IMG/VR virus record: IMGVR_UViG_3300042471_001765
Location: 1 to 55,846 of that record
Origin: a virus
Length of the DNA: 55,846 nt
Reading direction: 5' to 3' (one strand)
Shown here: positions 4,057-33,559 of the stretch, piece by piece
Layout of the letters: each line of letters starts with the position of its first letter
How positions within the stretch are numbered: the stretch's first letter is position 1
Position numbers and translations under genes: made by a program
Notes under the pieces: model-generated
Databases searched by the model: none
Seen by the model: only the letters and a program-made list of their open reading frames with translations
What the model was told of the DNA's origin: nothing

Positions 4057-5815
4057 AATTCCTGAAAATTACCCGTTTTCTTTTACGTCGGGAAAACTTA
4101 AGACTCCTCATGTGCTTACTAAAATTTGGTTCCTCACCTGGTAGCCTAGGTAGTCCGGTTAGTGGATCGATATCAAGATCAGGGGGAGTATTAGATGGCT
4201 GAATCGTTGGCTGTGCTTGAGATGTGGGGGATGATTGATTAATAATTGTTAATCGCTGGCGGATATTCTCAATGGTTTTATTCCCTATCCCCTTTCCTTT
4301 CAATCGCTGGCGCATATCTTCAATATTTTTAAATGGTGCTTTCTGCAATTCCTGGAATACTGTATTAGCTTGCGATCGCGTCAGTCCTAAATTACTAGCC
4401 CACAGCTGTACAGGGGACTTAATATCATTTAGCATTGTAATAGGATCAAAGCCTTCAGACAACTGGATGAATCTTTTTAAAGTTTTTCCGCCTATTTGGG
4501 GAATTTTTCTCAGATCATCAATACTATCAATGCGATTAGTCCTTCTGTACCTGAGAATTTCACTAACTTGCCGGACATTGAGTAATCTACCCGGCAGTAA
4601 TGCTTGTATTTCTTCCCTAGTAGCAGTATTCAAGTCCACTCCATTTATTAAAAATCTAGTATCAGTTTCTTCTGTGGACTCCTCTAGGGTTTCTTCTGTA
4701 TTTTCTTCTGTACTTTCTTTTGTACTTTCTTTTGTACTTTCTTTTGTTGGCTCTAGTTGCTGTGTTTTACTTTCTACTGCGTTCTTGATTTCCTGTACGG
4801 CTCTTTCCAAAGTCAAACCAACAACCACATCCTTACCAGTCTCGATCGCTTTAGAACCTGCTTTTTTAGCCGCAGCACCTAAGAGTACAGCAGCCAAAAC
4901 AGCAGCCCCAGCCCAAAGCACCGGGCGGGGGATTAATTCTCTATTCTCAATTTTTCTATCAGGTTCATCAAGCCGTGGATCGTCTTTTAGTACAGGGCTT
5001 AAAACACATCTGCAATTGGGATGCAGTGGTGGAGTGATTTGTGCGATCGCGCGCCAATCATCCAGAGGAATAATCAACCCGTGACGGGATGCGCAGATAG
5101 GACAGCGACGCTCATCAATAATCGTGTAAAAAGTCACGGCTTTAACCAAACCAGATTGGCGGTAGGTTTCCAGCCTACCAGCGTTATAGGCAAAAGTTAA
5201 CTCGGTTCTTGCAATGGTTTCAGCTCGCCTTTTGAATCTGCCAGATTTAGATCCCAGAGTTTCCTCAATGCGATCTATTAGCTCACTCCTAGAAATAGGT
5301 TGCCCGGATCTACCCTGGGGAGTTACCGCCGCCAATAAATCTTGTTGGATGCGGGCATATTCAGAGTTACTAACATCACCAGCCAACTGGTTAATTCTAG
5401 CCCTAATAGCTCTTTCCGCCGGAACATTACGGATAGATTGAATCCGCACACCTGGTTTGTTTCTATCATCCCTTTCATTAAAATAAATTAAATTAAGATC
5501 ATTACTAAAAGTAGCCCGCTTAGGAGCCTGCTTTTTAATCTCTGTATTGCCGTGATTAGCTCCTAAATTCCAGCCAGCGAGCCACACAGCATACAGCGAT
5601 CGCTCTAATTGAATCCTGAGAAATTCCCGCACCTTCTCCGGATCTTGTTTCAACTTTTTTACAGCTTCCAAAGGGATTTTAGATATTACACCAGCCCCCT
5701 TGTTTTCTGCATTTTCCAAAGCCTCTAAAACTTTCTTTTCCCCTAGAATCAGCTTATCATTAGGGAAATACTCACCACCAACCCTGGTAAATTTAGAGAA
5801 TACAGAATCAAACAT
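4046..5815 (-). CDS. Mu F-like minor head protein fused to two helix-hairpin-helix domains
   Basis: 589 residues. Residues ~1-275 are the phage minor head / head morphogenesis domain, with the cysteine-histidine signature CPIC...HPNCRC (C238, C241, H265, C268, C270). Residues ~299-316 are a hydrophobic Ala/Leu segment, followed by a Thr/Glu/Ser-rich repeat around 358-385 (units of ESTK). Residues ~390-523 carry two ComEA-like helix-hairpin-helix units: NGVDLNTATREEIQALLPG with IPQIGGKTLKRF, then LKGKGIGNKTIENIRQRL, which suggest non-specific DNA binding. Mu F proteins sit near the portal in the prohead, so this fusion may hold or guide DNA at the vertex. The ATG is only 2 bp from the divergent portal ATG. 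Confidence 0.85.
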   Translation of the reverse strand: MFDSVFSKFTRVGGEYFPNDKLILGEKKVLEALENAENKGAGVISKIPLEAVKKLKQDPEKVREFLRIQLERSLYAVWLAGWNLGANHGNTEIKKQAPKRATFSNDLNLIYFNERDDRNKPGVRIQSIRNVPAERAIRARINQLAGDVSNSEYARIQQDLLAAVTPQGRSGQPISRSELIDRIEETLGSKSGRFKRRAETIARTELTFAYNAGRLETYRQSGLVKAVTFYTIIDERRCPICASRHGLIIPLDDWRAIAQITPPLHPNCRCVLSPVLKDDPRLDEPDRKIENRELIPRPVLWAGAAVLAAVLLGAAAKKAGSKAIETGKDVVVGLTLERAVQEIKNAVESKTQQLEPTKESTKESTKESTEENTEETLEESTEETDTRFLINGVDLNTATREEIQALLPGRLLNVRQVSEILRYRRTNRIDSIDDLRKIPQIGGKTLKRFIQLSEGFDPITMLNDIKSPVQLWASNLGLTRSQANTVFQELQKAPFKNIEDMRQRLKGKGIGNKTIENIRQRLTIINQSSPTSQAQPTIQPSNTPPDLDIDPLTGLPRLPGEEPNFSKHMRSLKFSRRKRKRVIFRNSKN

Positions 5816-10030: not shown

Positions 10031-10732
10031 ATGACCTGGGTAGATCCGTTAGAAGACGGAAAAAGCAAAATAAAACTAATAGCAGCACTGGGGAGCGACT
10101 TAGACATTGTTAATGATGCTAGGGCAAGCTTTGAGAAAACATCCACACAGCTAAGTGATAAAGATATTAAACTCATTCATTACCTAATCAAGCACCAGCA
10201 CACAAGCCCTTTCCGGGGTACTGTCTTCAAATTTAAAATTAAAGCTCCTTTGTTTGTTTGTCGCCAATGGTGGAAGCACGTCATCGCCAGCAATCATAAT
10301 GATGAGCAACTAGGATGGAATGAGAAAAGCTTTCGATATGTTGAGATTGATGATAGTAGTGAATTTTATATTCCTAAAATTTTTCGTCAACAGTCCAAGA
10401 ATAACAAACAAGCCAGCGAAGGTAAATTACCTGAAGATGCTAATCAGCAAGCAATAGAAATTTATACTCAACAGTGCCAAACTAGCTATCAAGCATACCG
10501 CAATCTTCTAGAGTTAGGAGTGGGACGAGAACAAGCCCGTGGCGTATTAGTTCCCTCTGTGTACACTTCTTGGGTCTGGACTGTTTCCCTGCAAGCTGTT
10601 TTACACTTTATCTCATTGCGTAGTGGTGCTGGCGCGCAAAGTGAAATTGGCGCTTATGCTGAAGCCATCACTTCCCTCATTAAACCCATAGTCCCCATAT
10701 CAATAGAGGCTTGGGAAACTCACTATGGCTGA
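10031..10732 (+). CDS. thyX: Flavin-dependent thymidylate synthase ThyX
   Basis: 233 residues. ThyX makes dTMP from dUMP using FAD, NADPH and methylene-tetrahydrofolate. Signatures are HQHTSPFRG (about 54-62), the substrate/flavin motif region CRQWWKH (77-83) continuing to NEKSFRY (97-103), and a C-terminal ARGVLVPSVYTS followed by FISLRSGAGAQSEI. The core motif normally reads RHRxxSxNExSxRY; here the stretch between the RQW and NE parts differs (WKHVIASNHNDEQLGW), a variant that may be lineage-specific. With Dcd and NrdJ in this window it supplies deoxynucleotides during replication. A terminator-promoter cassette begins at its stop codon. Confidence 0.9.
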   Translation: MTWVDPLEDGKSKIKLIAALGSDLDIVNDARASFEKTSTQLSDKDIKLIHYLIKHQHTSPFRGTVFKFKIKAPLFVCRQWWKHVIASNHNDEQLGWNEKSFRYVEIDDSSEFYIPKIFRQQSKNNKQASEGKLPEDANQQAIEIYTQQCQTSYQAYRNLLELGVGREQARGVLVPSVYTSWVWTVSLQAVLHFISLRSGAGAQSEIGAYAEAITSLIKPIVPISIEAWETHYG

Positions 10733-10874
10733 AAAACCACAGACTCCAACCAGGTGTAACAGCCTGGTTTTTTTGTGCCTACTGATAAATAGGTATAAAA
10801 ATATTTTTAAAATTAAGTGTTGACTTTTCAAAAATATCAGTATACTATATAAGGGTAGAGAAAAAACAAAGAGG
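10732..10874 (+). repeat. Terminator-promoter cassette, copy 1
   Basis: 143 bp. It contains a terminator stem AACCAGG...GCCTGGTT plus T-run (about 10748-10774), an AT-rich link, TTGACT (10820-10825), 17-bp spacer, TACTAT (10843-10848) and a Shine-Dalgarno GAGG at the end. It matches copy 2 at 141 of 143 positions by eye. It ends the thyX transcript and starts the next gene at 10881. Confidence 0.85.
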
Positions 10875-10880
10875 TAAGCA

Positions 10881-11186
10881 ATGAAATTATTAACCGCACT
10901 CGTACCCGTTAAAAAAATAAGCTGTAGTCAGCCCTGCATCTGGAACGAAGACTTCCTAAATACAGCAGCACAGTCTATTTTAGAATCCAAAGGAGTTATC
11001 AACCCTATAGTGGTTCGCCGAATAGATTTACGATCTTACGAGTTAGTGAATGGAGTACTTGAATACTATGCGGCTGTTAGAGCTAGAGAAATAGATCCTG
11101 GCGAAGGAGAGATGATCACTGTATTCATTGTGGAACCAGAGAATGAAGAAGCTTTAACCAAGCAAATAGAAATATTTAGAAGATAA
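10881..11186 (+). CDS. Small ParB N-terminal-like domain protein
   Basis: 101 residues. The segment ILESKGVINPIVVRRIDLRS, followed by YELVNGVLEYYAAVRA, follows the ParB/sulfiredoxin fold pattern: a helix, then .G...P+.V......Y.lv.G....aA. The usual GxRR box is replaced by NGVLEY, so nuclease or CTP-switch activity is doubtful. It is a free-standing domain with no DNA-binding part. It lies alone between two nearly identical terminator-promoter cassettes, so it is a separate transcription unit with its own early-type promoter and a Shine-Dalgarno GAGG. Confidence 0.6.
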   Translation: MKLLTALVPVKKISCSQPCIWNEDFLNTAAQSILESKGVINPIVVRRIDLRSYELVNGVLEYYAAVRAREIDPGEGEMITVFIVEPENEEALTKQIEIFRR

Positions 11187-11327
11187 AAACCACAGACTCC
11201 AACCAGGTGTAACAGCCTGGTTTTTTTGTGCCTACTGATAAATAGGTATAAAAATATTTTTAAAATTAAGTGTTGACATTTCAAAAATATCAGGATACTA
11301 TATAAGGGTAGAGAAAAAACAAAGAGG
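11185..11327 (+). repeat. Terminator-promoter cassette, copy 2
   Basis: 143 bp, same order as copy 1: terminator stem AACCAGG...GCCTGGTT with T-run (about 11201-11227), TTGACA (11273-11278), 17-bp spacer with ATATCAGGATAC overlapping the -10, TACTAT (11296-11301) and GAGG just before the next start. Confidence 0.85.
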
Positions 11328-11330
11328 CAA

Positions 11331-11513
11331 ATGGAGAACACTAAAAAACTGGAAGAACTAGAAAAAAAAATCGACTCTATCGAAATCTTGTTAGAGCGTT
11401 TATTAGGAATGGAATTAGACGATCTGGAAGAACTAGAAAAAAAAATCGACTCTATCGAAAATCGAGTGAATAAATTGGAAAGGCTTGTGTCTGAAATACT
11501 TCTAGAACTATGA
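11331..11513 (+). CDS. Small coiled-coil protein made of a duplicated segment
   Basis: 60 residues, almost entirely Leu/Glu/Lys heptads. LEELEKKIDSIE occurs twice, encoded by a 37-bp direct repeat (11349-11385 and 11424-11460, 75 bp apart), so the gene grew by internal duplication. It should form a coiled-coil oligomer. It is expressed from cassette copy 2 with GAGG four bases before the ATG. Such small coiled coils may bind a host or phage partner, but none is identifiable. Confidence 0.6.
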   Translation: MENTKKLEELEKKIDSIEILLERLLGMELDDLEELEKKIDSIENRVNKLERLVSEILLEL

Positions 11514-11570
11514 TGAATGACACTGCTAATCGAGTATATCTGGGATAAAAACAAACAATTGGAGATTTTG

Positions 11571-11786
11571 ATGAAAGTAATTAGAGTTAAAAAAAATAAC
11601 GCTACCGCGGCACTAGCCGCTATTCCTGGATCAGCTTTTACCCGCTGCCCGGACTACGATTGGCAAAACGGGCTAAGTGACGACCACACCATTCCCGCAG
11701 CGGGAATGGTAGGGCTAAAGTTACCGGACGGGATGTCCGGTAAGCAAGCGCACAAGCTGCTAAAAGAAGCGGGAATTGTGAATTAA
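11571..11786 (+). CDS. Small hypothetical protein
   Basis: 71 residues from ATG 11571, chosen because GGAG lies six bases upstream; an in-frame ATG at 11517 would add 18 residues without a ribosome binding site. The protein opens MKVIRVKKNNATAALAAIPG, has a central Asp/Trp/Cys patch (TRCPDYDWQNGL), and ends in a short helix (GKQAHKLLKEAGIV). No known domain. Second gene of the unit from cassette copy 2, ended by the terminator of copy 3. Confidence 0.5.
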   Translation: MKVIRVKKNNATAALAAIPGSAFTRCPDYDWQNGLSDDHTIPAAGMVGLKLPDGMSGKQAHKLLKEAGIVN

Positions 11787-11793
11787 TCCATCT

Positions 11794-11925
11794 TCCAACC
11801 AGGTGTAACAGCCTGGTTTTTTTTTGTGCCTACTGATAAATAGGTATAAAAATATTTTTAAAATTAAGTGTTGACATTTTAAAAATATCAGGATACTATA
11901 TAAGGGTAGAGAAAAAACAAAGAGG
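11794..11925 (+). repeat. Terminator-promoter cassette, copy 3
   Basis: 132 bp, same elements as copies 1 and 2 but lacking the first bases of the conserved block and with a slightly longer T-run. Terminator about 11796-11825, TTGACA 11871-11876, 17-bp spacer with ATATCAGGATAC, TACTAT 11894-11899, GAGG at the end. Confidence 0.85.
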
Positions 11926-11937
11926 GAACAGGGAACA

Positions 11938-12555
11938 ATGAATTTTTATCACTTAAAACAAATTATTGCTTGCCATAAAGGCAAGAAAGTAGTTGACACA
12001 AGAGGCATTATAACTGAAGTGCGCCCCTTTGCGCATGGCAGTTATGAAGAAGTTGAAGCTTGCTACCAGCAAGGTAGCAGGGTATACACAGACGATCTGG
12101 GAAATGTTTACAAAATAATTCAAAAAGACGGGGATGAACAAATCCTTGTAGGCACTTGGAGGGTGTTTGATAAATCGGAAATCGCTTCAAGAATCGCAGA
12201 GATTCTTGAGGAGAATGTGCAAGAAATTGAAGTAATCAAAAAGGATTACTATGCCCGCACCCAACCCCTATACCCGCATAGGGATAGGAGACGGTTCTGG
12301 AAAGAGTACTTTTACCAAGTGAAAGTGCCGTTTCCATCTTCTCAAAAAAAGATCCTTAAAAACGATCTGGAAGATGAAAACTATCCAGACTGCTTAAACT
12401 ACCTCCACGTGACCATTCACGGGGGGTATAGAATCTTCAAAATTCAGGGTGATGACATCACCCTACTAGAGACCCATGTAAATAAAAGAACGGTCGTAGG
12501 ATACGACCGAAACGGGGAGAAAATCCCCAACCCTGTGATGGGATGGAATTTCTAG
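11938..12555 (+). CDS. Hypothetical protein, single-gene accessory unit
   Basis: 205 residues. N-terminal half has alternating strands (KVVDTRGIITEVRPF, GNVYKIIQKDG); residues ~85-100 are an acidic helix (EILEENVQEIEVIKK); the C-terminal half has a Tyr/Pro-rich region and HVTIHGGYRIFKIQGDD. No family recognised. It has its own promoter (cassette copy 3) and its own terminator (12582-12608), so it is regulated like the other accessory units here. Early expression and host interaction are plausible but unproven. Confidence 0.55.
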   Translation: MNFYHLKQIIACHKGKKVVDTRGIITEVRPFAHGSYEEVEACYQQGSRVYTDDLGNVYKIIQKDGDEQILVGTWRVFDKSEIASRIAEILEENVQEIEVIKKDYYARTQPLYPHRDRRRFWKEYFYQVKVPFPSSQKKILKNDLEDENYPDCLNYLHVTIHGGYRIFKIQGDDITLLETHVNKRTVVGYDRNGEKIPNPVMGWNF

Positions 12556-12560
12556 AATTT

Positions 12561-12944
12561 CTATTCAAAAGACACAAAATCAACCAGGTGTAACAGCCTG
12601 GTTTTTTTGTATCGCTCGATCGCTTCCTCTAGCTCCCAGAAAATAGGAGCGCCAACAGCCGATATGAGCCGATCGCTCCGATACTTTCCGGTGGTGATTT
12701 CTTGCTTAGAGAATCCCAACTGGATAAGTGTTTCGTAGGAACCTAGTAGAGGGATGAATTCCTCAAGCCGAGCAATACTCAAATTACCATCCTTAAATTG
12801 CACCGGGAATATATCGCGGTTGTCAGCTACCTGTGGGGGCTGTTCCGTTGCGATCGCGATGGTAAATGGCGGATCCGGTGGGTGGATAAGGGCATCCCTG
12901 ATGGTGAGTACAGATACCAATCTGCCAGAAAGATAGTTATTCAT
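12561..12944 (-). CDS. Hypothetical protein whose C-terminus is encoded by the terminator repeat
   Basis: 127 residues. The body reads like a conserved protein (FKDGNLSIARLEEFIPLLGS, then LGFSKQEITTGKYRSDRL, then AVGAPIFWELEEAIE). The last ~15 residues (KKTRLLHLVDFVSFE) come from the antisense of the terminator hairpin at 12582-12608, so the original 3' end seems to have been replaced when that repeat arrived. It is convergent with the gene at 11938. No function assigned; the gene opens the minus-strand group 12561-14101 in reverse order. Confidence 0.55.
   Translation of the reverse strand: MNNYLSGRLVSVLTIRDALIHPPDPPFTIAIATEQPPQVADNRDIFPVQFKDGNLSIARLEEFIPLLGSYETLIQLGFSKQEITTGKYRSDRLISAVGAPIFWELEEAIERYKKTRLLHLVDFVSFE
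12582..12608 (+). terminator. Fourth copy of the accessory-unit terminator
   Basis: AACCAGG, a 6-base loop, GCCTGGTT and a T-run, identical to the hairpins of the three cassettes but with no promoter part. It ends the unit at 11938-12555. Confidence 0.85.
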
Positions 12945-18877: not shown

Positions 18878-19465
18878 ATGCAAGTATTAATTTGGGGAGA
18901 TTACGCCTGCTTCACGCGTCCGGAATTGAAAGCAGAGCCATTTTCGTACAATTACCCCACCTTTAGCGCGATCACAGGGGTGCTAGAGAATATCTACTGG
19001 AAGCCTGAAATGAAATACAAAATTAATTTTATTTTAGTTTGCAATCCAATTAAGAGGGCAAAATTTAAAATTAATGGCATCCAGGATAAGGCAAAAATAT
19101 CCAACATTGGCGGGATTCTAGCCGATGATTATAGTGTGCGCACACAAAGGAATTTAAATGTTTTGAAAAATGTGCGATATGTAGTAGATTTTGAGATTGA
19201 TCCACAGCGAACCGTGGACATCAAAAAACACAATTCCATCATCTACCGAAGGATTGAAAAAGGACAATATTATCACCATCCATGCCTGGGGTTTAAGAAA
19301 TTCCCTGCTTATTTTTCATTTCCAGTTGGTGATGAAAAAGGGCATCCATCCTTACTAGATGAGGAATATGTGGCTTTAAAGTACCTAAATTTTACAGGAA
19401 GCAAGGTCAAGCCTGAGTTTGGAATTTATCAAATTACGAAGGGTAAAATATGCTGCTTGAATTAG
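18878..19465 (+). CDS. cas5: Cas5 (type I-C, Cas5d/Cas5c crRNA endonuclease)
   Basis: 195 residues, slightly short for the family (about 220-240). The opening WGDYACFTRPELKAE and then TGVLENIYWKPE matches the Cas5d N-terminus, including the Tyr (Y40) that corresponds to the catalytic Tyr. DIKKHN (about 114-119) supplies the Lys-His pair known as catalytic in Cas5d, and RRIEKGQYYHHPCLGFKKFP is the conserved glycine-rich/final region. In type I-C this protein replaces Cas6: it cuts the repeat RNA and then holds the 5' handle of the crRNA in Cascade. The Shine-Dalgarno is AAGGAG. Overlaps cas8c by 16 bp. Confidence 0.9.
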   Translation: MQVLIWGDYACFTRPELKAEPFSYNYPTFSAITGVLENIYWKPEMKYKINFILVCNPIKRAKFKINGIQDKAKISNIGGILADDYSVRTQRNLNVLKNVRYVVDFEIDPQRTVDIKKHNSIIYRRIEKGQYYHHPCLGFKKFPAYFSFPVGDEKGHPSLLDEEYVALKYLNFTGSKVKPEFGIYQITKGKICCLN

Positions 19466-21003
19466 CCGAATTAGGCAAAAAATTAGAAGCACAAGGGTTA
19501 TTGGCTCCTTTTGGCTATGGCTTTATATCCATAGCATGGGAGTTGATGCTAAATGAAGACTCTGTAGATATAATTCCAGTGGCTACAGATTCAAAGCTAA
19601 AAACAAAAAAAATGTGTATTCCCGACATTGCTAGGAATAACACAAATCCCATCGCTCCCTGCGATAGTGCCGAATATGTACTAGGCTTAGGCGATCGCGG
19701 TGAATCGAGACACCAAAAATACTTGAATCTTCTCAAAGAATTGTACGGAGACCTGGAACTAGGACGCAAATTACATCAAGTCTTGACAGAAAAAAAATAC
19801 ACTGTTCCCACAAAAATGAATAGTGGCGATCGCTTGGTTATCAGCTTCGATGGTGTGTTCTTACATGAATTACCAGAATTTAAATCTCGGTGGATTTTAT
19901 ACGTAAATTCACAGCAAGAAACAATTACTGGAACTTGTAGCTTATCGGGTAAGGAATGCCAGGCTTTTGAAAAAACCATCCCAAAAAAGATCAAAGGCGT
20001 GCGGGGAAGCTTATCTTCTGGTGCTGCTTTAATCAGCTTCGATAAAGACTTCTCTCAAAGCTATGGATGGAAAAATAATGAAAATGCCTTAATAGATAAA
20101 GACATAATCTTACTAGCGTACCGATCGCTAGAATGGATTTTGAATGAAAAAACAACCCACTGGCATTGTGGGAACGATGATCTGACTTTCATTTTTTGGG
20201 GTGACGCTAGCGAGGGAATCCATGATGATATTTGGAATAGCGACATCACTAAAATCGACGGTGCTTTTACATCACTGGATGGTAATGGTTATCGTCGGAA
20301 ATATCCTCTATCTAATAGCTTTGTTTTTTGCACTCTCAAGGGCAACAGCGGGAGGATTTCGTTAGAAGATGTTGGAAAGATTAGCGCCGAAAACATTAGA
20401 AGCAACATAGAAAGATTTTTCCAGGATCAATTAATCAATGAATCCTGGAAACCTTACCCCATATGGCGACTAGTTTCTACAATGTACAAAAATCCAAAAA
20501 AAGAGTACACGAAAGATATTAAAAAATCACTTGCTGAATTAATGCTTTTTGGTACTCCATTACCTCGAAAAGTGGTAACATTATTATTAGCTAGAATATA
20601 CGCCGATCGCGACATAAAAAGCAGAGCCAATATTTTAGCCTTGTATGCAAAAACAACATTACTTCAAAATAAGAAGATGAAAAGTAAACAAGCAGAAGCT
20701 TTAGGACGCATAGCTTTTTGCCTGCATCAAGCACAATCCATCCAGAGAGGGAGTAGCAATACAAACATTATCAAATGTTTAAAAGCCTTAGCCCATTATC
20801 CTTGTAAACATTTTCATAGACTTTTAATCTCTTTTCAAAGAGATTATTTCCTTGTCACCCTATCCACTCGTATAGGTGAGCTATCGAGGGGATTAGAAAT
20901 ACCGGAAACACTTACAAAAGAAGAGCAGACCGTATTCATGCTCGGATTCATACAGGAACAAGATGAATACTGGTCCGCTAAAAACAAAGAGGTAACTCAA
21001 TGA
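19450..21003 (+). CDS. cas8c: Cas8c (Csd1), large subunit of type I-C Cascade
   Basis: 517 residues (family usually about 570-600). It follows the Csd1 plan: an N-terminal helix LLELAELGKKLEAQG, then GFISIAWELMLNEDSV, a SAEYVLGL element, a central STASG-like part (FIFWGDASEG near residues 245-260), and a C-terminal helical domain AEALGRIAFCLHQAQ ... EEQTVFMLGFIQEQ typical of the Csd1 end. The protein recognises the PAM and begins DNA unwinding. The C-terminal helical region is also the expected source of the Cas11c small subunit through an internal start. cas7 begins inside its stop codon. Confidence 0.85.
   Translation: MLLELAELGKKLEAQGLLAPFGYGFISIAWELMLNEDSVDIIPVATDSKLKTKKMCIPDIARNNTNPIAPCDSAEYVLGLGDRGESRHQKYLNLLKELYGDLELGRKLHQVLTEKKYTVPTKMNSGDRLVISFDGVFLHELPEFKSRWILYVNSQQETITGTCSLSGKECQAFEKTIPKKIKGVRGSLSSGAALISFDKDFSQSYGWKNNENALIDKDIILLAYRSLEWILNEKTTHWHCGNDDLTFIFWGDASEGIHDDIWNSDITKIDGAFTSLDGNGYRRKYPLSNSFVFCTLKGNSGRISLEDVGKISAENIRSNIERFFQDQLINESWKPYPIWRLVSTMYKNPKKEYTKDIKKSLAELMLFGTPLPRKVVTLLLARIYADRDIKSRANILALYAKTTLLQNKKMKSKQAEALGRIAFCLHQAQSIQRGSSNTNIIKCLKALAHYPCKHFHRLLISFQRDYFLVTLSTRIGELSRGLEIPETLTKEEQTVFMLGFIQEQDEYWSAKNKEVTQ
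20677..21003 (+). CDS. Possible internal Cas11c small subunit
   Basis: In other type I-C systems the small subunit Cas11c is translated from an internal start near the 3' end of cas8c. Here an in-frame ATG at 20677 lies directly before the AEALGRIAFCLHQAQ segment that begins the Cas11-like helical domain, giving 108 residues. The codons just before it, AAT-AAG-AAG, offer only a weak, very close ribosome site. No better in-frame ATG was seen nearby. Inference from family knowledge plus position. Confidence 0.4.
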   Translation: MKSKQAEALGRIAFCLHQAQSIQRGSSNTNIIKCLKALAHYPCKHFHRLLISFQRDYFLVTLSTRIGELSRGLEIPETLTKEEQTVFMLGFIQEQDEYWSAKNKEVTQ

Positions 21004-21806
21004 TAACGCAATCCACAACGCGCCATGACGCGATGGCATTCATAGAAGTAATCGACGGGAACCCCAACGGTGACCCGGATAACAATAATGAGCCACGCAG
21101 TGATATATCGACTGGACAAGGGTTGATATCTGATGTGTCCCTCAAAAGGCAAATCAGGAATACCCGCACCCTGAGCGGGTATGATGACATCTTCATCAAA
21201 CAAGGGGCTGCACTAAACGCACTGATGGAAGAGTGCTGGGGTAAATCTAAATTCAATTTAAACACCGACAGGGAAAATATCACCAACATTTTAATTGAAA
21301 AATACTGGGATATAAGAATGTTTGGGCAAGTCCTCAGTACAGGAAAAACACCAGGCTACCCTGTCCGGGGGTGCTTACAGATATCTTTCGGACGCTCCCT
21401 AGATCCGATTGAAATAGCCGAACACACCATTACCCGGTGTGCTAGCGCCAAACAGGAAGAAGAAAAAGAAAATAAAACCATGGGGAATAAAATGACAGTC
21501 CCGTATGGACTTTACACCTTTCGCATTGCTTTTTGCCCAAACAATAAAGCTAGTGATGAAGATTTAGAGTTTTTCTGGCAAGCTCTAAAATCTTGCTGGG
21601 AACTGAATAGATCAGCTAGCAGGGGGTTTATGGCGACAAGGCAAATAGTAATTTTCTCCCATGAAAGCCGTTTAGGATCAGCCCCGACACATGATTTGTT
21701 TGATACTGTATCTGTAGCCAAACAAGTTGAATTCCCCAGAAAATGGGAAGATTACAAAATTACTTACAAGGATATTCCAGAGGGGATATCCAGAACCATT
21801 TTGTAA
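21000..21806 (+). CDS. cas7: Cas7 (Csd2), backbone of type I-C Cascade
   Basis: 268 residues. IEVIDGNPNGDPDNNNEPR is the strongly conserved Csd2 opening, followed by GLISDVSLKRQIRNT; then a GQVLSTGKTPGYPVRGCLQI region and TVPYGLYTFRIAF near residues 165-180. Six or seven copies coat the crRNA in the complex. ATGA overlap with cas8c gives translational coupling. A hairpin with a UUCG loop and T-run follows the stop, so the cas5-cas8c-cas7 message can end here before cas3. The protein is shorter than typical (about 280-290) but all main elements are present. Confidence 0.92.
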   Translation: MITQSTTRHDAMAFIEVIDGNPNGDPDNNNEPRSDISTGQGLISDVSLKRQIRNTRTLSGYDDIFIKQGAALNALMEECWGKSKFNLNTDRENITNILIEKYWDIRMFGQVLSTGKTPGYPVRGCLQISFGRSLDPIEIAEHTITRCASAKQEEEKENKTMGNKMTVPYGLYTFRIAFCPNNKASDEDLEFFWQALKSCWELNRSASRGFMATRQIVIFSHESRLGSAPTHDLFDTVSVAKQVEFPRKWEDYKITYKDIPEGISRTIL

Positions 21807-21812
21807 TTCCTT

Positions 21813-21831
21813 AAGCCCTTCGGGGCTTTTT
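21813..21831 (+). terminator. UUCG-loop terminator between cas7 and cas3
   Basis: AAGCCC-TTCG-GGGCTT followed by a short T-run, 7 bp after the cas7 stop and only 5 bp before the cas3 start. It would lower cas3 expression relative to Cascade, and there is no Shine-Dalgarno between the hairpin and the cas3 ATG. Confidence 0.7.
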
Positions 21832-21836
21832 AATAA

Positions 21837-23822
21837 ATGCAAAAACAATTTTATGCTCGCATCTCAGATTCCCGCGGGCAACTTCTAAAAAATCACCTCT
21901 TGGAAGTTGCCAACCTAATGAATGAAAGATCCAAAGAAAAATTCAGGATTTACGCTTATTACATAGGCTTATGGCACGACTTAGGCAAATACAGAGAAGA
22001 ATGGCAGAATTACTTGATTAATGCGATCGCGGGCAAGAACCAAGAGCGTATTCATCACGCAGGGTATGGTGCTTGTGTATGTGAGCATCCTGTAATTAAT
22101 GGAATTATCGCGGGTCACCATAGTTCTATCAAGCCGCCGGAGCAAATAGGTGAAAATAGTATGGCTTTCGCTAAATACGAGAAAGAATATCAAGAATGTA
22201 TTGCCAACGCCACCCAAGAGATACCCCACTTTATCCAAGAAATTCCCAGAATCAAGCAAGCGCCAAACAATCGAGATGTAATGGCGAGGATGCTTTACTC
22301 ATTACTGATTGATAGCGATCGCTTAAATGCCCACTGCTTCTCAACATCCACCGATTGGAATGAGATTATTGATAATTCCGGCAGGGTGGTAATCAATATT
22401 AATATTCCCAGACACAATGAAAATACCTCAATCAATTCACTAAGAAATAAGTTTAGAACCACAGCCCTAAAAGCAGCCAAGAACAAACCAGGGTTGTACA
22501 AGCTCACCGGAGCCACAGGAATAGGCAAAACATATACAGCTTTTGAGTTTGCAGCATTGCACAACAACTTTAACAAAATGAATGGAGTTGTTTATGTTGC
22601 TCCTTTTAATAGCATATTAGACCAGACATCATCAGCAATTCACAAAATAGTTGAAAACGAAATACTAGATCACTATGGCAGCTTTGACAATTCAGACTCA
22701 CCAGCCATGCGCATTTCCTGTTCTCGGTGGGACAAACCAGTTATCTTGACTAGCATGGTACAACTGCTATCTAGTATGTTCAGCGATCGCGCGACGAAAG
22801 TCAGGAAATTACAAGGCTTAATCGATAGAGTAATCATCATTGATGAACCCCAATCTTTACCAATAAAATGCATTACTCCCATCCTAAATATGTTGTCTGC
22901 ATTAGTGGAAGATTGGGGATGTTCGGTAATATTCATGTCCGCCACGCAACCAGTATTTAATAATATTGGCACTTGGAATTTTCAAGATATCATCTCAAAA
23001 GATTTTCATCGCGATCACTCCTTAAAGCGAGCTAATTATAAATACTATCCAGAGCCAATGAAGTGGAAAGAATTACAAAATAAAGTTTGTTTGGAGTCAA
23101 TGGCATTAATTATTTTCAGTACCACTCAAAATGCCAGAGATTTCTATCATCAATTAAAAGTAGCCACCGACAAACCAGTACTGCATTTAAGCAGTAAGAT
23201 GTACATCCTGCATCGCAAGCAAGTATTAAGCCAAGTCCGTCGGTTGTTGGCAGAAGACAAAGATTTTTACTTAATCTCTACCCAAGTAGTAGAAGCTGGA
23301 ATTGATCTTGATTTTCCCTGTGTATTCAGGCAAATAGCCCCTATTCCTTCAATCATTCAAGCCCAAGGACGACTTAACAGAGAAGGTAAAAGAGACCCCA
23401 AAAATTCATGGCTACACATTTTTAATCTTGCAGAAGGAAACATACTGCCAGAAGATATCAAAGGCGCGGCAATTTCTCACACCCTATTAACACAAAACAA
23501 AGATTTAAATGACCTCAATGACATCTATTATCGTCGCTACTTGACAACCACCACCGACACCGGAGAAGAAATCGAAGCCCTCAGATACCAACAAAAATAT
23601 GATCAAGTAGCCGAAAAATTCAACATCATAGAAAATCAAAACACAGTCCTGGTTTTAGCTGAAGATTTTTTGAAAGACTATCAATATAAATCCCTCACAC
23701 CATCAGATTGGCAGATACTGCGATCATATACAGTCAACACCAGATCAAATAATTATATTGAATGGATAAATGGTATTTTGTGCTGGAATGGTGGGTATGA
23801 TGAGTGTGGAATTATGATATAA
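21837..23822 (+). CDS. cas3: Cas3 helicase-nuclease (HD plus DExD/H)
   Basis: 661 residues, shorter than the usual 730-900. HD nuclease: H20 in LLKNHLLEVA, H47-D48 in GLWHDLGKYREEW, H73-H74 in RIHHAGYGA, H94-H95 in IIAGHHSSI and D161 in LLIDSDRLN. Helicase: Walker A TGATGIGKT (224-232), VYVAPFNS, DEPQ box (336-339), MSAT (367-370), STQVVEAGIDLDFP and the arginine-finger motif QAQGRLNREGK. After Cascade binds a target, Cas3 nicks and unwinds it. All catalytic residues seem intact, so the interference arm should work. The stop codon lies inside the -10 of the array promoter. cas1, cas2 and cas4 are absent. Confidence 0.92.
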   Translation: MQKQFYARISDSRGQLLKNHLLEVANLMNERSKEKFRIYAYYIGLWHDLGKYREEWQNYLINAIAGKNQERIHHAGYGACVCEHPVINGIIAGHHSSIKPPEQIGENSMAFAKYEKEYQECIANATQEIPHFIQEIPRIKQAPNNRDVMARMLYSLLIDSDRLNAHCFSTSTDWNEIIDNSGRVVININIPRHNENTSINSLRNKFRTTALKAAKNKPGLYKLTGATGIGKTYTAFEFAALHNNFNKMNGVVYVAPFNSILDQTSSAIHKIVENEILDHYGSFDNSDSPAMRISCSRWDKPVILTSMVQLLSSMFSDRATKVRKLQGLIDRVIIIDEPQSLPIKCITPILNMLSALVEDWGCSVIFMSATQPVFNNIGTWNFQDIISKDFHRDHSLKRANYKYYPEPMKWKELQNKVCLESMALIIFSTTQNARDFYHQLKVATDKPVLHLSSKMYILHRKQVLSQVRRLLAEDKDFYLISTQVVEAGIDLDFPCVFRQIAPIPSIIQAQGRLNREGKRDPKNSWLHIFNLAEGNILPEDIKGAAISHTLLTQNKDLNDLNDIYYRRYLTTTTDTGEEIEALRYQQKYDQVAEKFNIIENQNTVLVLAEDFLKDYQYKSLTPSDWQILRSYTVNTRSNNYIEWINGILCWNGGYDECGIMI

Positions 23823-23823
23823 T
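23815..23823 (+). promoter_or_regulatory. Extended -10 promoter of the CRISPR array
   Basis: TGATATAAT (TGn plus a perfect TATAAT) overlaps the cas3 stop codon and lies 7 bp upstream of repeat 1; no good -35 is seen, as is common for extended -10 promoters. The following G-run continues directly into the repeat. The same TGATATAATGGGGG string precedes the solitary repeat on the minus strand at 35981-35994. Confidence 0.7.
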
Positions 23824-23830
23824 GGGGGGA

Positions 23831-24005
23831 GTAACAATCCCTCGCAAGGGGGGTTGAGGATTGTAATTAGGAAGCGCTAGATTGTCAGGGCTTAACGGTA
23901 ACAATCCCTCGCAAGGGGGGTTGAGGATTTTAACATCGAAATACACCCAAAAAAGCGCGCGAGCCGGGAGTAACAATCCCTCGCAAGGGGGGTTGAGGAT
24001 TGTAA
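23831..24005 (+). CRISPR. Three-repeat CRISPR array (type I-C)
   Basis: Repeats of 36 bp start at 23831, 23898 and 23970; each begins GTAACAATCCCTCGCAAGGG and ends GATT(G/T)TAA. Copies 1 and 3 agree; copy 2 differs at one base (T for G near the 3' end). The two spacers are 31 bp (23867-23897) and 36 bp (23934-23969). Repeat RNA can fold by CCC-TCGCAA-GGG or by the longer ACAATCC/GGATTGT pairing. The 3' end (GGATTGTAA) resembles the usual I-C handle (GGATTGAAA). Beyond repeat 3 is a short echo, GAGGATTGCAAC (about 24006-24018), maybe a decayed further repeat. No acquisition genes adjoin, so the array is probably frozen or fed by host Cas1-Cas2-Cas4. Confidence 0.93.
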
Positions 24006-24053
24006 CGAGGATTGCAACAATGTAACAACCACGGAGCCATATCAGACAGTAAT

Positions 24054-28436: not shown

Positions 28437-29207
28437 ATGACTATCATAACACAGATCCTCACAACTGAACAAATTAAAGAGACGGAACAAGAGGCGATCG
28501 CATTTGCCGCCACCCGCACGGATCGCCAGATTCTAACAATGATGGCAACTCTAAATGCCTATGCCTGGAGGGCTGCCATAGATTACGGTGCTATCAAAGC
28601 CGATGAATCGGGTCACACGACCATCCAGTATGAGAATTGGAAAAAATTGTTAAATGCCTCGGCGCGCGGGGGAATTAAGATAATGGTGGCTGTAAAGTAC
28701 TTGGCTACCTACATAAAAAGATTTTGGCGGGGAGCTTTCCACACCAGACCGACAATGATGACTTACCGTGAATACCTCGTAGCCTTTGGATTGTTTACGT
28801 ACGATCGCGATCGCCCCCAACATACAGTATTGCCGCCGGAGTTGGAGGGTGTGGATTTTTGTAAGATGCTCATTATATATAGGGTTTTAGATCGCATCCT
28901 ACGGGAGCGGGTAGCTAGAAAAAATAACTATAGTGAGGATGCAGCATTTGATTTTCTTCCCAAGCATGGGGGAATGTCGATGATTATCATGTACGATGCT
29001 TTATTTGCTGGAAGTAGTGATTTTCAAGGGAATTATCAAGAAGAAAAGAATATAGCGATCGCCTTTGCGGAGACCGCGCCCCTGCCACCCATTCAGTGGA
29101 GTTACCCTAAGTTCACGACTTTATGTCGCAGAGCTTGGCAGAAGCTTTTACAAAGAAGTGGATACTTCAATAGATGGGAGCAGCAGCTAGAATTATGCAC
29201 CACGTAA
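28437..29207 (+). CDS. Hypothetical protein before the PAPS-reductase-like gene
   Basis: 256 residues, helical and basic. The N-terminus ILTTEQIKETEQEAIAFAAT is helical; the middle contains NWKKLLNASARGGIKIMVAV, then FWRGAFHTRPTMMTYREYLV; the end is RRAWQKLLQRSGYFNRWEQQ. No catalytic motif or membrane helix recognised. It overlaps the next gene, so the two are likely made together. No Shine-Dalgarno is evident, so the 5' hairpin leader may matter for expression. Confidence 0.5.
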   Translation: MTIITQILTTEQIKETEQEAIAFAATRTDRQILTMMATLNAYAWRAAIDYGAIKADESGHTTIQYENWKKLLNASARGGIKIMVAVKYLATYIKRFWRGAFHTRPTMMTYREYLVAFGLFTYDRDRPQHTVLPPELEGVDFCKMLIIYRVLDRILRERVARKNNYSEDAAFDFLPKHGGMSMIIMYDALFAGSSDFQGNYQEEKNIAIAFAETAPLPPIQWSYPKFTTLCRRAWQKLLQRSGYFNRWEQQLELCTT

Positions 29208-30073
29208 ACGAAATATTGAATGAATCAGTAACAAAATATGGCATATCCGCTATTTATGCCTTATTTTCCGGTGGGCATGATTCATTGACGAATACTCACC
29301 TAACAGCCAAGCACCCTTTATTTGCCGGGGTGCTGCATATTGATACAGGTATTGGCATTCCTCAAACTCAAGATTTTGTACGTGCTACCTGCGATCGCTA
29401 TGGCTGGGAGCTACAAATTTATAAGGCTACAGAATATATCAATGGCAAGGGGCAACTACAGCCACAAATATATAGGGATATGGTGCTGGAATATGGATTT
29501 CCTGGTCCTTCGCTTCACCAAAAAATGTACGATCGCCTTAAAGCCTTGCCACTAGCGCATTTTATTAGAGATTGGCGCAAGATAAATGGTAAAAAAATCA
29601 TAGGTTTATCCACTGGGGCAAGAAAAGAAGAGAGCCGCCGACGGGCTGCATTTATGAATAAAAATCTTAATAATTATCGCAAAGATGGGAGAAAAATCTG
29701 GATAAATCCTATTGCGGATTGGCTTGATGATGATTGCGATCGCTACATCAAAGAAAATAATCTGCCAAGGAATCCGGTAAAAGATAATCTTTGTATGAGT
29801 GGTGAGTGCCTGTGTGGAGCCTATGCACAGCCACGGGAATTGCAGCAAATAGAATTTTTCTATCCAGAGGTAGGGGCTAGGATTCGGGCATTAGAGGAAG
29901 AAGTAAAAACTAAATTCCCGTGGGGATGGGATGAGAAGCCCCCGGTATGGTGGGCTGAAAAAATCAAAGCTGAAAGATTAGAAGAGTATGGGCAAATAAA
30001 TTTATTTAATCCCTTGTGTACATCTTGTAATTTACGGTATTTGCTCACAAAAGATGATTTAATGTATAAATGA
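29195..30073 (+). CDS. PAPS reductase / PP-loop ATP pyrophosphatase family protein
   Basis: 292 residues from ATG 29195; an in-frame ATG at 29174 is an alternative. The PP-loop SGGHDS (25-30) lies in AIYALFSGGHDSLTNTHL, followed by VLHIDTGIGIPQTQDFV and a GPSLHQKMYDRLKALPL region. C-terminal Cys groups (LCMSGECLCGAYAQP and CTSCN) could hold an iron-sulfur cluster, as in DndC-like and related phage proteins. Such enzymes activate a substrate with ATP for sulfur or other transfer, possibly to modify DNA or RNA. The IGLSTGARKEESRRR element is characteristic. No dnd partners are nearby, so the substrate is open. Confidence 0.75.
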   Translation: MHHVNEILNESVTKYGISAIYALFSGGHDSLTNTHLTAKHPLFAGVLHIDTGIGIPQTQDFVRATCDRYGWELQIYKATEYINGKGQLQPQIYRDMVLEYGFPGPSLHQKMYDRLKALPLAHFIRDWRKINGKKIIGLSTGARKEESRRRAAFMNKNLNNYRKDGRKIWINPIADWLDDDCDRYIKENNLPRNPVKDNLCMSGECLCGAYAQPRELQQIEFFYPEVGARIRALEEEVKTKFPWGWDEKPPVWWAEKIKAERLEEYGQINLFNPLCTSCNLRYLLTKDDLMYK

Positions 30074-31437: not shown

Positions 31438-31620
31438 ATGGACAAGCTAAACATCAGAAAACAACCGACTACTAGGATTCATCCCGGCGATCGCGCCAGG
31501 CTGAACGAATTAGCTTTAGTACTGGGGATTACCCAGTACGAGGCTCTAAGATTATGCCTCCGAGTGGGTTTTGCTTCCTTGGAAACAAACCCCCAAGGGT
31601 TGATGGGGGTTGAAATATGA
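31438..31620 (+). CDS. Small ribbon-helix-helix-like protein
   Basis: 60 residues: RKQPTTRIHPGDRARLNELA, continuing LVLGITQYEALRLCLRVGF, fits a ribbon-helix-helix DNA binder (strand, helix, turn, helix). It begins the unit that goes on with parB, joined by an ATGA overlap. Small RHH proteins often regulate plasmid partition operons or act as centromere binders. Confidence 0.55.
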   Translation: MDKLNIRKQPTTRIHPGDRARLNELALVLGITQYEALRLCLRVGFASLETNPQGLMGVEI

Positions 31621-32552
31621 CTACTGAAGAAAGAGGCTCTGGAAGGATTGAGGTGATAGATATCACCCAACTTCTACCCCACTCCTTAAATGCTTCTATC
31701 TACGGGGCAGAGGAGGATGTCTCAGATTTAGTAGAAGCAATTACAGAAAGCGGGCATATAGATCCGCTCTCTGTAATTCAAGTTGGTGATAAAGGTGATA
31801 AATACCAAGTCCTGCGGGGACACCGCAGGCTACGAGCAGCCAAGCAGATGCAACTGGCAAAGCTGCCATGTACAGTCTTAGTAAACTTGACAGAAGAAGA
31901 AAAATTGGTCATTTTACTCACTGGAAATGTCCAGAGAGAAAAGACTATTGAAGTCAAAGTCCGCGAGGCTTGGCTTTGGGAAGAAATCTACAAAACCCAA
32001 GCCAAAGCCCGCATGGGCAAAAAAGGATCGGGGCAGGGTGCTGCCCGCGACCTCATAGCCAAGCAAGTGGGGCTTGGTTCTGGTGTGACTTATGAGCGCG
32101 CCAGCGCTGCGGTCAAAGCCATGGAAGGAAACCACCCCATGGCAGATCAGATAAAAGAGATTGTTACCAGCCCTACTGGTAAAGTCTCTAAAGCTTACAA
32201 ATTAATCCAGGAAGATAAGGAAGAAAAAACTTTCACCTCTGTAGCAGCAGAGGTGAAGGACAAACAGAAGAAACTTGGACTGGGTACAAGTGATCAGGTT
32301 TTTCCTGATATTGAGCGCAACCAAGGAGATCCGAGAGAAATGGATACCCCCGTTGCCTGCTTACCGATTAAAAAGCCGGCGCAGCCAATGCCGGAAAAAT
32401 ACAAGGATATTCTTGTAAAGCTTAGAGACATTCAAGAGGAAGCGCGCGCGATCGCGAACTTCCTGGAAACCCGTGCTGAGTTCACAGACGATGCAGCACG
32501 GTTTGTAGATATGAGGGTTTCCGCAATGAAGACAAGGATATCTGCATTATGA
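31617..32552 (+). CDS. parB: ParB-family protein
   Basis: 311 residues. The N-terminal ~110 residues hold the ParB fold: IEVIDITQLLPHSLNASIYG, ESGHIDPLSVIQVGDKG and the box YQVLRGHRRLRAAKQMQLAK with GHRR at 68-71. The central part VREAWLWEEIYKTQAKARMG resembles the HTH region of KorB/ParB-like proteins; the C-terminus is helical. ParB normally binds parS and works with ParA, but no parA is seen in the window. It may act in partition with a host ParA or as a replication or transcription factor. Strong context: RHH gene before, replication protein after. Confidence 0.8.
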   Translation: MTTEERGSGRIEVIDITQLLPHSLNASIYGAEEDVSDLVEAITESGHIDPLSVIQVGDKGDKYQVLRGHRRLRAAKQMQLAKLPCTVLVNLTEEEKLVILLTGNVQREKTIEVKVREAWLWEEIYKTQAKARMGKKGSGQGAARDLIAKQVGLGSGVTYERASAAVKAMEGNHPMADQIKEIVTSPTGKVSKAYKLIQEDKEEKTFTSVAAEVKDKQKKLGLGTSDQVFPDIERNQGDPREMDTPVACLPIKKPAQPMPEKYKDILVKLRDIQEEARAIANFLETRAEFTDDAARFVDMRVSAMKTRISAL

Positions 32553-32710: not shown

Positions 32711-33559
32711 ATGAAAACAATAACAATGGTAGTCCCCAGCTACCTTGACGACTGGGGACTCAACCCCTATGAATTTCGTGTTTATTGCCGCATAGCCCGG
32801 CAGGCTGGTAAGTCGGGATGCCTTGAATCTATAGCATCTATGGCGCAGGCGTGCCTAATGGATGCCAAATCGGTGCGTAAAGCCATAAAAAGGTTGCTGG
32901 CAGATAAGCTAATCCGGGCGATCGCAGCACCGGGTAATCCTACCAGATATGAGCTTAATCCCATGGATGAATGGGAAGCTGCAAAGCGGGAACCCCTGCC
33001 AGATATGGTAGACCCCCCCTGCCAGATCCGGCATACCCCCCCTACCACATTAGGTAGCCCTACCCCTACCAGATCCGGCATACCCCCCCTACCAGATATG
33101 GTAGACCCCCCCTGCCAGATCCGGCATACCCCCCCTACCAGATCCGGCATACCCCCCCTGCCAGAAATCCCATCTAACAAGGATTTCTCAATGCCATCAG
33201 GATTTTCCCCACTTTCTGGAAAAAATCCAAGAACAGGAAAAGAGTATTTTCCTTGGCAAGGAATTCAGAATGGGCGCATTGCCAACAATCCTGAATTTTT
33301 GGAATTTGTAGCGCGATCGCTTACCTCCAAATACGACCATTACAAAAATCTACAACTCCGAGAGCTTCCCATTGAAATTAAAAATTATGTAAATCGCGCA
33401 CAGCATGATTTACAGCGTGAGGAGACTATGTGGGAGTACTGGAATATTTTTACATCAAATCAAAAGGAATTCTTGCCTCAAACCATGAGTGTAAATGAGG
33501 TAAAAACAATCTCCGCTTTGGAGAAAATGACACAAAACCTAGTAAACAAAGGATACTGA
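32711..33559 (+). CDS. Replication initiator-like protein with origin iterons inside its gene
   Basis: 282 residues from ATG 32711, chosen for GAGG five bases upstream; GTG 32681 is possible. The N-terminal ~80 residues are a winged-helix domain (WGLNPYEFRVYCRIARQAGK, MAQACLMDAKSVRKAIKRLL, DKLIRAI), as in phage replication proteins of the O/DnaD-like class. Residues ~95-152 are a Pro-rich low-complexity stretch encoded by 23-bp DNA repeats (see that entry). The C-terminus is helical (IEIKNYVNRAQHDLQREETM). By analogy with lambda O it probably binds repeats inside its own gene and loads helicase with the next protein. Confidence 0.65.
   Translation: MKTITMVVPSYLDDWGLNPYEFRVYCRIARQAGKSGCLESIASMAQACLMDAKSVRKAIKRLLADKLIRAIAAPGNPTRYELNPMDEWEAAKREPLPDMVDPPCQIRHTPPTTLGSPTPTRSGIPPLPDMVDPPCQIRHTPPTRSGIPPLPEIPSNKDFSMPSGFSPLSGKNPRTGKEYFPWQGIQNGRIANNPEFLEFVARSLTSKYDHYKNLQLRELPIEIKNYVNRAQHDLQREETMWEYWNIFTSNQKEFLPQTMSVNEVKTISALEKMTQNLVNKGY
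32996..33168 (+). repeat. 23-bp iterons, candidate replication origin
   Basis: Seven tandem units of 23 bp (one of 24) starting near 32997, 33020, 33043, 33067, 33090, 33113 and 33136, plus a partial eighth. The core is T(A/G)CCAGAT, then CCGGCATACC or ATGGTAGACC, and a C-run. Since 23 is not a multiple of three, successive units are read in all three frames (LPDMVDPP, CQIRHTPP, TRSGIPP), so selection acts on DNA. This is the picture of iterons inside a replication gene. Confidence 0.85.

Follow-up and report, generated by a model that had tools for sequence, protein, structure and literature searches.

In lambdoid phages the origin iterons, together with an AT-rich tract, sit in the middle of the initiator gene O (PMC7466680). 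Lambda O is a protein of 299 aa with an N-terminal DNA-binding domain, and its gene carries four iterons (start codons 117-139) with start-to-start steps of 20, 24 and 23 bp, which are read in phases 0, 2, 2 and 1, i.e. in all three codon phases; unstable DNA lies directly after the iterons and gene P comes next. Several RepA_N origins likewise sit within repA. RepA_N initiators, such as that of a staphylococcal plasmid and RepA of PLE, bind semi-palindromic direct repeats through an N-terminal winged helix and have a divergent C-terminal domain, while the PLE origin is non-coding (PMC7145576); in this family the DNA-binding domain covaries with the origin (PMC8263062). A third group comprises initiators of cyanobacterial and Deinococcus plasmids, annotated as hypothetical or helix-turn-helix proteins, e.g. 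that of Nostoc sp. UHCC 0302 (WP_341531496.1), in which a winged helix-turn-helix (wHTH) domain homologous to that of the protein described here (48% identity) is combined with a repeat array in the same place.

The locus described here is part of IMG/VR virus record IMGVR_UViG_3300042471_001765, all 55,846 bases of which were analysed (the window). No terminal direct repeat was found in the record. The HIP1 octamer GCGATCGC is present in 78 copies against 0.4 expected, and the host is therefore a cyanobacterium. Searches of viral contigs, genome contigs and deposited phages with the single Rep protein gave no match, and those with the neighbour genes of rep gave few; by sequence comparison, no deposited phage is closely related to this cyanophage. 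Its rep gene and the gene that follows (Table 1) form a well-supported candidate for a module of the lambda O/P type with the origin within the initiator gene, and the iteron array inside rep is very likely the initiator-binding part of the phage replication origin. The layout is close to that of lambda, and Rep is of similar size to lambda O (282 aa) and likewise has an N-terminal DNA-binding domain. Unlike lambda, the virus has a cyanobacterial host, a ParB-like gene upstream, and an initiator without significant sequence match to lambda O (E 0.13 for the wHTH).

Table 1. Features of the candidate replication module in the window
Feature	Position	Strand	Basis or remark
ParB-like protein gene	31617-32552		upstream of rep; ParB_N
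rep, O-like replication initiator gene, 282 aa	32711-33559	+	ATG at 32711, GAGG upstream
Winged-helix DNA-binding domain, aa 10-90	32738-32980	+	AlphaFold2, Foldseek
Isolated half-site ATCCTACCAGATATG in wHTH coding part	32937-32951	+	repeat search; 3 mismatches to core
Iteron array, 7 full units and a partial eighth	32993-33165	+	core CCTRCCANATNNGGYA; dyad CTACC-N6-GGTAG / TGCC-N6-GGCA
Iteron 1, 23 bp, phase 2	32993-33015	+	
Iteron 2, 23 bp, phase 1	33016-33038	+	GGCAT avoids TAG
Iteron 3, 24 bp, phase 0	33039-33062	+	extra base; seven units = 54 codons
Iteron 4, 23 bp, phase 0	33063-33085	+	
Iteron 5, 23 bp, phase 2	33086-33108	+	
Iteron 6, 23 bp, phase 1	33109-33131	+	GGCAT avoids TAG
Iteron 7, 23 bp, phase 0	33132-33154	+	
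Partial iteron 8, left half CCCCTGCCAGA only	33155-33171	+	3 mismatches
Putative unwinding element, degenerate AAGGNATTCCC-like repeats	33165-33240	+	sequence, stability comparison
C-terminal helical region of Rep	33281-33559	+	low-confidence helices aa 194-279; FPW..G motif in common with L027
Candidate lambda P-like helicase loader gene, 128 aa	33561-33947	+	starts 1 bp after rep stop codon

Elsewhere, at 18878-24011, the record contains type I-C cas5c, cas8c, cas7 and cas3 genes, followed by a CRISPR-like array of three repeats (23831, 23898 and 23970) and two spacers (30 and 35 bp) for which no long match was found within the window. A PAPS-reductase-like gene (29174-30073) shows 29-38% identity to actinobacterial, rhizobial and archaeal virus genes. 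The region 10732-12610 carries a 146-bp repeat in three copies, two of them 98% alike; a terminator-like hairpin, CAACCAGGTGTAACAGCCTGGTTTTTTT, occurs four times (10747, 11200, 11796 and 12581), and a second ParB_N match corresponds to a 102-aa open frame (10938-11084). Cumulative GC skew, put forward in the first-pass annotation as a check on the origin, is uninformative: near 32-33 kb the curve has a local maximum instead of the minimum expected of an origin, in step with a switch in gene strand.

The array had been placed in an O-like initiator gene, and the properties of Rep agree with this. Besides its wHTH domain, the protein matches PHROG families 8102, 391, 270 and 6643, all named replication initiation, with E-values from 2.5e-6 to 4e-4 (2.9e-5 for PHROG 391, 'replication initiation O-like'). 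HTH_36, recognised at aa 16-62 with 25.3 bits against a cut-off of 25, is the only Pfam match; up to E 10 there was none to PF04492 and none to RepA_N (PF06970), the latter separating Rep from the RepA_N initiators, which it resembles in its N-terminal wHTH. AlphaFold2, given the window Rep together with six relatives from phages, models the wHTH at pLDDT ~74-95. In Foldseek this domain is best matched by wHTH proteins of the MarR/ArsR type (probability 1.00, E ~4e-3); when its profile was compared with PDB sequences, the only matches were generic wHTH ones, at E 0.03 or worse. The iteron-encoded linker (aa 95-192) has pLDDT under 50 and is predicted to be disordered, while the helical region beyond it is presumed to be a partner-contact domain. 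The iterons can sit in rep because they encode only this disordered linker between the Rep domains.

TRF and a repeat search delimit an array of 7.5 copies with start-to-start steps of 23, 23, 24, 23, 23 and 23 bp. Seven 23-bp units had been annotated at 32996-33168; the seven-unit array is real, but it starts 3 bp earlier, at 32993, and one of its units has 24 bp. The best TRF score in the rep gene is 260, against a maximum of 67 in 200 dinucleotide-preserving shuffles. All seven units fit the 16-bp core exactly, and the window holds no further core with up to one mismatch, barring array sites on the opposite strand. The isolated half-site in the wHTH coding part is possibly due to chance. 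The units are dyads, e.g. CTACC-AGATAT-GGTAG or TGCC-AGATCC-GGCA, and lie within the initiator coding sequence between its DNA-binding and C-terminal parts; their spacing of 23-24 bp falls within the 20-24 bp, roughly that of helical turns, of lambda-type origins, and they are conserved as DNA. Their sequence differs from that of lambda (ATCCCTCAAAACGAGGGA against CCCCTACCAGATATGGTAGACCC in the comparison of lambda O and the window), as does their number, four in lambda against seven and a part. The seven copies are very probably the DNA-binding sites of Rep itself.

Proteins with a wHTH domain are often repressors, and the closest folds of Rep are MarR/ArsR regulators, so that the array might instead be an operator for Rep or another regulator controlling the operon, with replication starting elsewhere. 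However, the array lies within the gene, ~280 bp in, and not at a promoter, and it contains every copy, with none upstream; a next gene that encodes DnaB or a loader-like protein points to initiation, and lambda O is a direct precedent. An operator in place of an origin is therefore very improbable, although autoregulation may come on top of origin function.

The seven units are read in codon phases 2, 1, 0, 0, 2, 1 and 0 and encode the peptides PLPDMVDP, PCQIRHTP, PTTLGSPT, PTRSGIPP, PLPDMVDP, PCQIRHTP and PTRSGIPP, respectively, confirming the first-pass annotation in that the same DNA gives three peptides in turn. It had also described all three frames as open: the frame as read is open, but the other two forward frames across the array are interrupted by 3 stops and 1 stop, each of them a TAG supplied by a GGTAG unit. 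Reading in three frames is not unusual, as the lambda iterons are read likewise, and the same DNA is tolerated in three frames because the encoded linker is predicted to be disordered. Six units of 23 bp and one of 24 bp sum to 162 bp, and the downstream frame is kept because the extra base in the 24-bp unit makes this 54 codons. In phase 1, GGTAG would give a TAG stop; both phase-1 units have GGCAT instead. This is consistent with coding constraint over DNA constraint, the seven units being related and thus no statistical proof. It may even be, although we consider this somewhat doubtful, that the reading frame locks iteron number, so that 23-bp units could be gained or lost only three at a time or together with an indel that compensates, here the single 24-bp unit, and units in the stop-prone phase would have to swap GGTAG for GGCAT, often paired with TACC to TGCC on the opposite dyad arm. 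If this is true, gene structure would limit origin strength and copy-number evolution, in contrast to relatives whose 24- or 18-bp units can expand freely.

The core turns up again in phages and in cyanobacterial plasmids, and the initiators concerned are only distantly alike, with no more than 48% identity in the DNA-binding domain. In every case the core lies in the gene of a winged-helix initiator, immediately behind the wHTH: in the phage loci L021, L022, L026/L027, L030 and L031 and in a Nostoc plasmid (L007). L021 and L022 came from a viral search with a wHTH alignment. A DNA-only pattern, CCCTRCCANATNNGGYAN{1,10}CCTRCCANATNNGGYA, run over 2.9 million viral contigs, retrieved 5 stretches, and a looser pattern 6; L021 and L022 are expected among these, both having helped to build the pattern. 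In the pattern-independent loci, i.e. the near-identical L026 and L027, L030 and L031, the array always lies directly after the domain in a wHTH gene. A degenerate core was needed for these matches, as the exact two-unit pattern of the window gave none. When the L021 array was compared by blastn with 72,556 plasmids, the sole match was the L007 record, in its rep gene and on the strand opposite to the gene. Across seven records (~0.7 Mb), every core match with up to one mismatch falls inside the arrays.

In these relatives the core is read in phase 0 or 2, giving TKSG and LPN/LPD peptides, or is inverted, and the encoded peptides differ; three phases are used only in the window. The array of the Nostoc plasmid is inverted relative to the gene, and therefore the DNA, not the peptide, is conserved. 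The first-pass annotation had asserted conservation at the DNA level from the window, and the persistence of the core in other phases and in inverted orientation among distant initiator genes upholds it. The L007 array occupies 4349-4470 of its plasmid (Nostoc sp. UHCC 0302), and its neighbours, encoding AlkB, DnaB, an ASCH protein and a cytosine methyltransferase, look phage-like. In L031 (601-1413, minus strand), a GC-rich phage contig, the core is found in a classic HTH_36 initiator (46 bits), which suggests that this iteron type reaches outside cyanobacteria. No published description of this iteron or of the plasmid/phage group was found in a literature search of incomplete coverage.

These comparisons also bear on whether the array is a coding minisatellite, that is, slippage repeats kept as a proline-rich linker with no role as DNA. 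A minisatellite would agree with the predicted disorder of the encoded region and with the mostly in-frame repeats of L021 and L022 (24 and 18 bp). Against it stand the use of three phases in the window and of two in L007 (with an inverted unit), L026/L027 and L030, and the persistence of the DNA core across initiators with different linker peptides; neither peptide selection nor recent slippage accounts for a single DNA core being common to phages and plasmids that are distant from each other. We regard a minisatellite as hardly credible.

The ParB_N gene adjoining rep, together with the fact that centromeres are often iterated, raises the question of whether the array is a parS-like partition site for the ParB-like protein. 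In all five other virus records with the iteron, however, ParB_N is absent, although several of them may be fragments, and a wHTH gene surrounds the iteron in all five, so that the iteron is tied to rep and not to parB. Partition is thus very improbable as the role of the array, and binding of the initiator is preferred.

A tblastn search of plasmids with Rep identified 15 records, nearly all cyanobacterial or from Deinococcus, which have only the N-terminal wHTH in common with it (best 48%). The next gene in these is usually dnaB, against a candidate loader gene in the window. In most of the plasmid homologues TRF detected arrays immediately behind the wHTH, with a period of 22-25 and a unit sequence that varies by subgroup; L007 has the window core, but most other plasmids carry a different repeat. 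Distant initiators (L003, L008/L010/L019, L011/L012/L018 and L013/L014) likewise have different repeats of 21-25 bp in the same place. Repeat type tracks how the initiators are related: five classes of repeat, mapped onto a tree of the wHTH, need 5 changes, against a mean of 11.1 after shuffling, and no shuffle out of 200 needed so few. Resolution of this tree is weak, clustering of this kind is inflated by near-copies, and the window-type core is found at two separate points on the tree. The distribution agrees with each initiator recognising a repeat of its own. The L003 phage, which has a cytosine methyltransferase in common with the window (60% identity), carries at 1329-1421 a 21-bp repeat of another sequence, which lies within the replication gene of that phage, with DnaB next.

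In the window record the 50 bp after the array are only mildly unstable, with 76% of gene windows being more stable. The same 50 bp in nine relatives are less stable than 57-99% of gene windows, and those of lambda than 99%; the putative unwinding element is thus weak in the window and clearer in relatives, and its region is less AT-rich than in lambda. The AAGGNATTCCC-like repeats of 14-15 bp are found in many loci, always in one frame and encoding P-x-K peptides, and DNA and protein constraint are inseparable here because only one frame is used. Lysine codons in these repeats are AAG:AAA 12:4 against 96:139 (p 0.009), which is suggestive only. DnaA boxes were considered and rejected: two TTTTCCACA-like sites with one mismatch lie within 60 bp of the array, against 43 in the window.

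A loader-like or helicase gene lies directly downstream of the initiator gene, as in lambda-type origins, with DnaB in relatives. The next gene of the window had been described as helicase-loader-like, and comparison with lambda P bears this out. Its product has no Pfam, NCBIfam or PHROG match, and searches of the PDB gave nothing convincing. A profile of family A4, comprising the product and its positional counterparts, matched lambda P in hhalign with E 9.4e-5 and a probability of 59%. The predicted fold aligned with lambda P in 9oa1, the DnaB-lambda P complex, in VIA-align with Z 7.0 and rmsd 2.6 over 74 residues (next best 4.5), a Z of 7 being modest for a helical protein and the model having low to moderate confidence (pLDDT 67). 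Both alignments cover nearly the same part of lambda P, ~residues 40-115; Foldseek itself gave E 2.0. The case that the gene encodes a lambda P-like helicase loader is good, though not conclusive, and of moderate strength for the window. A loader of the SPP1 G39P type (PF11417) was rejected, there being no Inhibitor_G39P match up to E 10 in the window, L021, L023 and L027 records.

In the mechanism that these features suggest, the N-terminal winged helix of Rep would bind the seven dyad iterons cooperatively and wrap them, upon which the less stable DNA just downstream of the array would open. The C-terminal part of Rep and the product of the next gene may then recruit DnaB helicase, which would be that of the host because no DnaB gene was found in the 55,846-base record. 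The DNA sequence of the iterons would be kept and the linker peptide would be free to vary, provided that the frame stays open.

The module would add a new group to those with the lambda O/P layout, and overturns nothing. One iteron type is common to cyanophages, a Nostoc plasmid and a GC-rich phage contig, and it offers a clean case of DNA-level selection within coding sequence. A candidate origin and its initiator are thereby mapped for a cyanophage without close deposited relatives, which enables the design of minimal replicons for cyanobacterial shuttle vectors.
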